Source: Candidatus Tectimicrobiota bacterium (GTDB lineage: Bacteria > JACPSX01). From it: DNA of 10,755 bases. Every line of letters starts with the position of its first letter. Position 1 is the stretch's first letter. The stretch is taken from positions 1 through 10,755 of the forward strand of contig JACPSX010000260.1 of NCBI GenBank assembly GCA_016193065.1, in the 5' to 3' direction. The position numbers and the translations under genes are program-made. Under the pieces are notes generated by a model. It worked only from the letters and a program-made list of their open reading frames with translations. It was not told the origin of the DNA and ran no database searches. Positions 8,635-10,755 of the stretch are shown piece by piece.

Positions 8635-9825
8635 ATGGAACTGAAAGATATCGTCGCAGTGAGCGCCGTGCGGACTCCCATGGGCCGCTTTGGAGGAACA
8701 CTGAAAGACATCCCGGCCTGGGATCTGGGCGGCATTGCCATTGCCAGCGCCCTCAAACGTGTCGATCTGAGAGGCGACCAGGTCAGCGAGGTGATTTACG
8801 GCAACTGCCGCCAGGCCGGCAACGGGCCTAACCCTTCCCGGACCGCCTCCATCAAAGGGGGAATCCCCCGCTCGGTTTCCACCCAGACCATCAACATGGC
8901 CTGTCCCTCGGGGATGAAGACCATTGCCCTGGCCTCACTGTCCATTCGAGCCGGCGACTCGGAAATCGTCGTGGTCGGAGGCATGGACAGCATGAGCACG
9001 ATCCCCTACCTCCTGAAGGGAGTGCGCTGGGAAGGGTTCAAGATGGGGGACAAGACCCTCCTGGACGGCTGGAGCGACAGCATCGATCCTTTGTGCAACA
9101 TGGGGATGGGACAGACCGCCGAAAACCTGGTGGAGAAATACGGGATCAGCCGCCAGGAGCAGGATCAGTTTGCCGTCGATAGCCACCAGAAAGCGGCCCG
9201 GGCCCAGGACGAGGGCTGGTTTGACAACGAGATCGTCCCCGTGGAGATTCCACCCCAGGGGAAAACTCCGGGAATCAACTTCACGAAGGACGAAAGCATC
9301 CGCCGCGACACCACCCTGGAGAAGATGGCCACTCTGCCCGCCGCCTTTAAGAAAGGGGGCACGGTCACTGCTGCAAACGCCTGCGGGATGACGGACGGGG
9401 CTACGGCTCTGATCCTCATGTCGCGGGATAAGGCCAAGTCCCTGGGGCTGAAACCGCTCTTCTCTCTGCTGGCTTATTCCTCTACCGCCGTGGACCCCGA
9501 GACCATGGGGGAAGGGCCGGGCGTCGCCATCCCGCTGGCCCTAAAGCACGCGGGCATGGCGCTGAACGACATGGACCTGATCGAGGTCAACGAGGCTTTC
9601 GCCGTCCAGATCCTGGCCAACGAGCGGGTTCTGCAGTGGGACCGCAGCAAGTTGAACGTCCACGGCGGGGCCATTGCCCTGGGCCACCCCACGGGGATCA
9701 GCGGGGCCCGCATCGTCGGCACCCTGTACAACGCCCTGAGCCGCCTCAACAAGGAGCTGGGCATCGCCTCCATTTGCGGAGGCGGGGGAGTGACGATGGG
9801 AATGATCATCCGGCGGGAAAACTAG
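8635..9825 (+). CDS. Acetyl-CoA C-acetyltransferase (thiolase)
   Basis: A complete 396-residue thiolase, the usual length; the ATG is preceded by GGAGG. Thiolases condense two acetyl-CoA to acetoacetyl-CoA or cleave 3-oxoacyl-CoA. The nucleophile Cys90 is in NMACPSG (87-93), followed by the VNEAF motif (318-322), His351 in GGAIALGHPTGISGAR (344-359) and Cys381 in CGGGGVT (381-387). The His loop has T-G-I where IGASG is common, and the last motif is CGGGGVT rather than CIGGGMG; both catalytic cysteines and the histidine are kept. Pairing with the upstream PhaB-like reductase suggests the biosynthetic direction, but beta-oxidation specificity cannot be excluded. The stop codon TAG (9823-9825) lies inside the left end of the palindromic element, so the last residues may have been altered by that insertion. 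Confidence 0.93.
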   Translation: MELKDIVAVSAVRTPMGRFGGTLKDIPAWDLGGIAIASALKRVDLRGDQVSEVIYGNCRQAGNGPNPSRTASIKGGIPRSVSTQTINMACPSGMKTIALASLSIRAGDSEIVVVGGMDSMSTIPYLLKGVRWEGFKMGDKTLLDGWSDSIDPLCNMGMGQTAENLVEKYGISRQEQDQFAVDSHQKAARAQDEGWFDNEIVPVEIPPQGKTPGINFTKDESIRRDTTLEKMATLPAAFKKGGTVTAANACGMTDGATALILMSRDKAKSLGLKPLFSLLAYSSTAVDPETMGEGPGVAIPLALKHAGMALNDMDLIEVNEAFAVQILANERVLQWDRSKLNVHGGAIALGHPTGISGARIVGTLYNALSRLNKELGIASICGGGGVTMGMIIRREN

Positions 9826-9960
9826 CAGGCTGCTGAAAAAGTCCCTTTCGTGGTTCGACAAGCTCACCACGAACGGAGAAACTTCCAGAATTTCAATGCG
9901 TGCTCCGTTCGCCCTGAGCGCGTCGAAGGGTGAACGGAGGGTTTTTCAGCAGCCTGCTAG
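9822..9960. mobile_element. 139-bp palindromic REP/MITE-like element between convergent genes
   Basis: Perfect 19-bp terminal inverted repeats (CTAGCAGGCTGCTGAAAAA at 9822-9840; its complement at 9942-9960) enclose two inner hairpins. The first is TTCGTGGT/ACCACGAA (9847-9854 and 9866-9873). The second is a 13-bp stem with one G-T pair (9903-9915 and 9927-9939). The loops, TCGACAAGCTC and GAGCGCGTCGA, are approximate reverse complements, so the whole unit is two related hairpins in inverted orientation, like a BIME or small MITE. AAAA flanks both ends (9818-9821 and 9961-9964), a possible target duplication. It encodes no transposase. It lies between the convergent thiolase and thioredoxin-like genes and could serve as a two-way terminator. 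Confidence 0.8.
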
Positions 9961-9966
9961 AAAACA

Positions 9967-10563
9967 TTATTTCCCCAAACCGCTGACGATTTCCGCCCGG
10001 AGATCATCGTACGACACGGCACCATCAATCCGCTTGCGAACGATTCCCTGACGGTCAATCAGGATCGTGATGGGATAGCCGTCGACCTTGTAAGCGCTCA
10101 TGTCTCGACGGTTCCCCAGGAGATGGGGCCAGGCGCTGAAATGAGACTTGGCGAAGCGCTCAACGAGCGCCGGTGTGTCGCGGGAATCGGCTGCAATGGT
10201 AAAAAACGCCATTTGATCCTTGTAGCTCTCATAGGCTCGACCCACGGTCGAGGCGAATATATCGCAGTAGGGTCACCCGGTCCAGATGAACTCGACCAGC
10301 ACAGGCTTTTTGCCAATGTAGTCGGCCAGCGCGTAGCGCTTCCCCGAGAGGTCGGGAAGCTGAAAGTCGGGGGCCTTTGCCCCCACAGCGGCACCTTCTG
10401 CTACACCCCCCGACCCTGAACCGGAAAGCCATCCGGATTGGTACAGCACCACTCCGATTCCCACGGCCACGAGCCCCAAGATGCCGAAAGCCCAGAGGGG
10501 GAATTTGCGCTTCGGGGCGCTCTTTGCCCGGGAACCTTGTTTGCGCTTCTTCTTCGATGCCAC
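9967..10563 (-). CDS. TlpA/thioredoxin-like selenoprotein, UGA read as selenocysteine (UPYC active site)
   Basis: Read with TGA 10273-10275 as selenocysteine, this is a 198-residue protein starting at GTG 10561-10563, five bases after GAAGGAGG. A Lys/Arg-rich N-terminus (1-20) and one membrane segment (about 22-41) place a thioredoxin-fold domain outside the cytoplasm. GAKAPDFQLPDLSGK (61-75) is the AhpC/TlpA entry motif. Then comes VEFIWTG-U97-PYC100, with the selenocysteine at the first position of the CxxC redox centre. FFTIAADSRDTPALVERF (120-137) and VDGYPITILID (160-170, cis-Pro164) complete the fold. The frame is unbroken on both sides of the TGA, and a hairpin follows where a bSECIS belongs. 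Its likely job is periplasmic thiol-disulfide exchange together with the VKOR encoded 11 bases upstream. Conventional calling would give two fragments. The alternative, a nonsense-mutated pseudogene, is less likely because the TGA sits exactly at the catalytic site. Confidence 0.87.
10236..10252 (-). promoter_or_regulatory. Candidate bacterial SECIS hairpin for UGA 10273-10275
   Basis: In the mRNA sense, CUCGACC (nucleotides 21-27 after the UGA) pairs perfectly with GGUCGAG (31-37) around a GUG loop. Bacterial SECIS elements place a short apical stem with a G(U)-containing loop roughly 16-37 nucleotides after the UGA for SelB binding. The position and loop G/U fit. The lower stem is poor and the loop is small, so structure prediction should be checked. 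Confidence 0.6.
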
Positions 10564-10574
10564 TTGATCCTCCT

Positions 10575-10755
10575 TCAATGTTCGAGAACAGCGACCCGGG
10601 TACCCGGCTTCCGGGTGCTCGGAACCCGGGAGGTCGCCCGCAAGGATAACAGGAAAATAGCAATAATGAATGCGAAAACCGTCAGGCAGTACGGACAAAA
10701 CGTTTTGAGGACAAAAGCTTCCACCGAGGTTAAATAACATTCAAATACCAGGGCG
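10575..10755 (-). CDS. Vitamin K epoxide reductase (VKOR) family membrane protein, C-terminal end (cut by right edge)
   Basis: The last 59 residues are visible, entering from the right edge and ending at TGA 10575-10577. YLTSVEAFVLKTFCPYCLTV is the typical VKOR transmembrane segment with the quinone-side CPYC redox motif, followed by a hydrophobic helix (FAFIIAIFLLSL) and a basic tail (RATSRVPSTRKPGTR). Bacterial VKOR is the functional counterpart of DsbB: it reoxidises a periplasmic thioredoxin-like partner and passes electrons to quinone. The N-terminal helices and the loop cysteines are outside the window. Its stop is 11 bases before the start of the selenocysteine-containing thioredoxin-like gene, so the two are almost certainly co-transcribed. 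The frame is too short and lacks a start here, so it is easily missed. Confidence 0.85.
   Translation of the reverse strand, partial: ALVFECYLTSVEAFVLKTFCPYCLTVFAFIIAIFLLSLRATSRVPSTRKPGTRVAVLEH

Follow-up and report, generated by a model that had tools for sequence, protein, structure and literature searches.

A probable membrane-anchored TlpA/ResA-like selenoprotein in an uncultured bacterium

Within the window, the whole 10,755-nucleotide stretch of Candidatus Tectimicrobiota DNA analysed here, a gene of 198 codons on the minus strand (9967-10563) most probably codes for a thiol-disulfide oxidoreductase of the TlpA/ResA (AhpC-TSA) fold that is anchored in the membrane, faces the periplasm and has selenocysteine (Sec) in place of its attacking Cys. 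We put the probability of this reading at about 0.93. The preliminary description had proposed a membrane-anchored TlpA/thioredoxin-like selenoprotein from the letters of the DNA, and this remains the best reading by far, given that TGA recurs at the catalytic Cys of related genes, that homology runs across the TGA, and that the genome contains selB and selD. This recurrence is the strongest evidence for Sec.

Reading frame and fold across codon 97

The gene, all of whose features lie on the minus strand, begins with a GTG codon (10563-10561) and ends with TAA (9969-9967). The Shine-Dalgarno sequence AAGGAGGA (10568-10575) is located 4 nt upstream of the GTG start. When TGA is translated as U, the TGA of codon 97 (10273-10275) is the sole internal stop in the frame; the preliminary description had placed both the frame and its one interruption at the correct coordinates and had left the minus strand unstated. 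GC content by codon position is 0.64/0.50/0.73 before the TGA and 0.58/0.45/0.67 after it, a pattern that is alike on the two sides and similar to that of the other genes in the window. The residues flanking codon 97 read VEFIWTG-U-PYCD, which places U97 within WTGUPYC. Since homologues have either Cys or TGA there, codon 97 is the probable Sec codon, at position 1 of a U-P-Y-C motif, and codon 100 (10264-10266) would, from the frame translation and alignment, encode the resolving Cys of the same UxxC motif.

With Cys substituted for U, the product matched the Pfam families AhpC-TSA (PF00578; residues 60-177, 54.3 bits against a cut-off of 26) and Redoxin (44.2 bits against a cut-off of 26.6). 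Its top NCBIfam match was ResA, at 65.1 bits and far below the cut-off of 170, and the NCBIfam model NF041054 (WAxxUGC), whose cut-off is 300, gave 22.9 bits, the motif here being UPYC and not UGC. Two solved structures aligned across the TGA: the thioredoxin family protein 3hdc_A (E=1e-13), which has Cys at position 97, and ResA 3c71_A (E=2e-12), whose first active-site Cys falls at that position. Because the AhpC-TSA and ResA-like alignments span TGA97, both sides of the codon are homologous to one continuous domain. These alignments bear out the earlier proposal that the TGA replaces the attacking Cys of the redox motif, and the thioredoxin-fold sequence that had been recognised on both flanks, including YPITILID, is accounted for by the AhpC-TSA match and by the alignment of Pro164 of that motif (10072-10074) with the proline in ResA's LPTTFLI-type segment. 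Judged from this alignment, Pro164 would occupy the usual cis-proline place and is presumed to face the active site. AlphaFold, run on this sequence alone, predicted the structure poorly (pLDDT 48).

Residues 23-41 (LWAFGILGLVAVGIGVVLY; 10441-10497) have a mean hydropathy of 2.29 and are predicted to form an N-terminal membrane anchor. Since this hydrophobic stretch stands behind a Lys/Arg-rich N-terminus, the thioredoxin domain most likely lies outside the inner membrane.

TGA at the catalytic Cys of related genes

A search of the same genome with the AhpC-TSA profile recovered 11 genes, and translation revealed exactly one in-frame TGA in seven of them, each at the catalytic Cys. Six of the seven have UxxC motifs, namely WTGUPYC (the gene under study), TWUPSC, TWUHSC, HTUDSC, FGUIFC and LTUPYC, and the remaining gene is of the peroxiredoxin type (TGGUTKE). 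We conclude that the product of the gene under study is almost certainly one of at least six UxxC-type AhpC-TSA selenoproteins in this bacterium. The loci L210, L214, L217 and L220 (contigs C184, C145, C287 and C104) hold further probable selenoproteins: the peroxiredoxin of TxxU type (TGGUTKE) and the UxxC AhpC-TSA proteins with HTUDSC, FGUIFC and LTUPYC.

The protein was also searched against 58 other genomes. Among the matches listed, 17 homologues from eight other genomes have one TGA, in all 17 at the equivalent of position 97, and the Cys three residues further on is kept in 14 of them. Neither TAA nor TAG was found at the catalytic Cys site in the family members of the same genome or in the homologues listed from the 58 genomes. 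Homologues in two genomes (G046 and G020) have a TAA in the aligned stretch; these were discounted, as the stop lies at the very start, well before the thioredoxin domain. TGA-bearing homologues were listed for 7 of the 28 SelB-positive and 1 of the 30 SelB-negative other genomes (one-sided Fisher p=0.02). The SelB-negative exception, G056, is an assembly of 650 contigs with 5% contamination. Its TlpA homologue (TTTUPNC; L090, G056:C306) comes from a genome in which SelA, SelB and a true tRNA-Sec were not found, for which the likely explanation is a contaminating contig or an assembly gap.

Homologues with Cys at position 97 had been named in the preliminary description as a check, and they do occur, both in solved ResA-like chains and in family members on contigs C145 and C226 of the same genome. 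Identity to this protein is low, about 25-37%, among the homologues that span the domain, and the other genomes compared share only the domain with it. A scan of the named genomes with the protein returned no relative, and the plasmids searched gave nothing beyond distant ResA-like matches.

With seven of the 11 family members and 17 homologues having TGA at the catalytic Cys and none having TAA or TAG there, the pattern is not due to chance, and the repeated hits to the same codon make random mutation or error unlikely. A sequencing or assembly error for TGC or TGT would leave an ordinary CxxC TlpA-like protein, and it is true that TGA is one base from both Cys codons and that Cys homologues are common. 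However, the same error would be needed at the same codon in six more family members and in 17 homologues elsewhere, and the genome also has selB and a Sec-type selD; we consider such an error very improbable. Even less probable is a nonsense mutation in a gene that is now decaying. The failure to find a close intact relative would fit decay, but the gene has no other lesion: the start with its Shine-Dalgarno sequence and the frame after the TGA are intact, the codon pattern is even, and decay would not hit the catalytic codon seven times over within one family.

Another way to explain the TGA inside several genes of the genome would be a genome-wide change of its meaning to a different amino acid, for example Trp or Gly (code 4 or 25). 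In-frame TGA is, however, limited to catalytic Cys sites in AhpC-TSA genes, and the anticodon of the tRNA-Trp seen is the usual CCA. TGA also comes directly after the region of homology in a CxxC TlpA gene and in one selD, the copy beside a transporter, and so works as a stop; this use argues against reassignment across the genome, the least probable of the explanations weighed here.

Selenocysteine-decoding genes in the host genome

Decoding of TGA as Sec is in keeping with the content of the genome (2.9 Mb, 294 contigs, 86% complete). It contains selB (370.6 bits against a cut-off of 242.25) and two copies of selD (410.5 and 382 bits against a cut-off of 125), each with a TGA at its own N-terminal Sec site (GAGUGCK and CAGUAGK; L063 8400-9452 and L064, C120). 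Among named SelB records, the closest come mostly from Deltaproteobacteria/Desulfobacterota metagenome bins, with 44-49% identity, which makes a Desulfobacterota-like host no more than a guess. Desulfobacterota are known to be rich in selenoproteins, some having 40 or more (PMC12013277). Phosphonate-type ABC transporter genes adjoin one selD, and the binding protein of this transporter has 'putative selenate ABC transporter substrate-binding protein' as its top NCBIfam match. The gene for this putative selenate-binding protein (L063, G000:C175, 4970-5748) consists of two overlapping ORFs in different frames, a split that points to a frameshift or to faulty assembly.

The search for selA with two profiles returned nothing in the 86%-complete genome, and tRNA-Sec (selC) was found there neither with the Rfam covariance model nor with a pattern of anticodon and T-arm; the Rfam tRNA-Sec matches were tRNA-Trp, tRNA-Ser, tRNA-Leu and other ordinary tRNAs. 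Of the four genes that the preliminary description had proposed to look for, selB and selD (in two copies) are thus present, and selA and selC are missing from the assembly. Only 260 bases of contig C175 precede selB, and they contain no recognisable gene. Elsewhere, selA adjoins selB (within about 2 kb) in 17 of the 27 other genomes with selA above the cut-off, and tRNA-Sec lies near selB in several other genomes. Given the 86% completeness, the contig break at selB and the adjacency of selA and selB elsewhere, an assembly gap is the simplest reason for the absence of selA and tRNA-Sec, and such a gap is likely, far more so than a true lack. The lineage could instead be truly without SelA and a recognisable tRNA-Sec, and might charge an unusual tRNA with Sec in some other way while keeping SelB and many Sec thioredoxin-fold proteins; we give this as little credence as decay of the gene. 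Absence of selA, selB and selC had earlier been named as what would speak against Sec, and this holds literally for part of the set, but selB, the Sec-type selD, the six other TGA-bearing genes and the contig break favour a gap. A tRNA-Sec gene and a TlpA-like homologue lie about 600 bases apart in another genome (L096, G057:C1:402500-407500).

A candidate bacterial SECIS hairpin is located just 3' of the UGA (10236-10252), with a 7-bp stem (CUCGACC/GGUCGAG) and a GUG loop separated from the UGA by 27 nt. The bacterial SECIS rule calls for a loop of 3-9 nt with G in the first two positions, a stem of 4-16 bp, a spacing of 16-37 nt and an MFE of at most -7.5 (PMC13188914). The hairpin, at about -10 kcal/mol, lies within all four of these limits, yet about 28% of codon positions score equally when all codons of six genes in the window are scored under the same rule. 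Because of this background, the hairpin is compatible with Sec but adds little and is not proof. The segment directly upstream of TGA97 folds as stably as the hairpin, and no RNA family was matched when the 3' end of the window was searched against Rfam.

Proposed activity, relatives and gene context

On established bacterial Sec biology, SelB bound to the hairpin would deliver Sec-tRNA(Sec), and the ribosome would insert Sec97 rather than terminate. If the protein acts as its fold suggests, the U97 selenolate would attack a partner's disulfides or oxidised thiols, with C100 then resolving the mixed selenosulfide, as in the C-x-x-C of ResA. We infer the actual insertion of Sec at residue 97, the outward topology, the substrate and the direction of electron flow, the last being most likely reductive. 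By analogy, the protein would be likely either to reduce the disulfides of exported proteins, apocytochromes or oxidised thiol enzymes for example, or to carry out thiol-dependent removal of peroxide.

The neighbouring genes in the window encode a thiolase, a short-chain dehydrogenase, a sigma-54 response regulator, a histidine kinase, an aldehyde:ferredoxin oxidoreductase and a gamma-glutamyltranspeptidase, and they give no pointer to the selenoprotein's substrate. Between the thiolase and selenoprotein genes lies a 139-bp element (9822-9960) with an inner inverted repeat and with terminal inverted repeats of 19 nt that match perfectly (CTAGCAGGCTGCTGAAAAA). Related copies or pieces of it are present at about 45 places in the genome, and it resembles a MITE or other dispersed palindromic element.

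Prx-like UxxC and thiol-disulfide isomerase-like UxxC selenoprotein families have been known since 2005, when they were described from the Sargasso Sea (PMC1088965), and a 2026 review catalogues both together with UGC-type TlpA selenoproteins (PMC13188914). The Prx-like thiol:disulfide oxidoreductase selenoproteins (PF00578) have the same AhpC-TSA domain, UxxC in place of CxxC, and Cys homologues; the gene described here belongs with them by fold and motif only, and differs in WTGUPYC and in the N-terminal anchor. With the thiol-disulfide isomerase-like (cd02966, UxxC) and UGC-containing TlpA (cd02966) selenoproteins it shares the TlpA-like fold and Sec at the attacking position, although the spacing differs from that of the latter (UGC, against UPYC here). 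ResA (PRK03147; PDB 3c71, 1st9), an oxidoreductase of cytochrome c maturation, has in common with it the membrane anchor, the fold and the xPxC active site. In contrast to ResA, the protein here would have Sec for Cys, and cytochrome maturation genes are absent beside its gene.

The selenoprotein is a new, divergent member of an already catalogued kind, and the biochemical principle is known. Automatic annotation is likely to give two fragments or a pseudogene at this locus, which the selenoprotein reading corrects. For this uncultured bacterium, the reading means that Sec is used in the majority of the AhpC-TSA proteins recovered (7 of 11).
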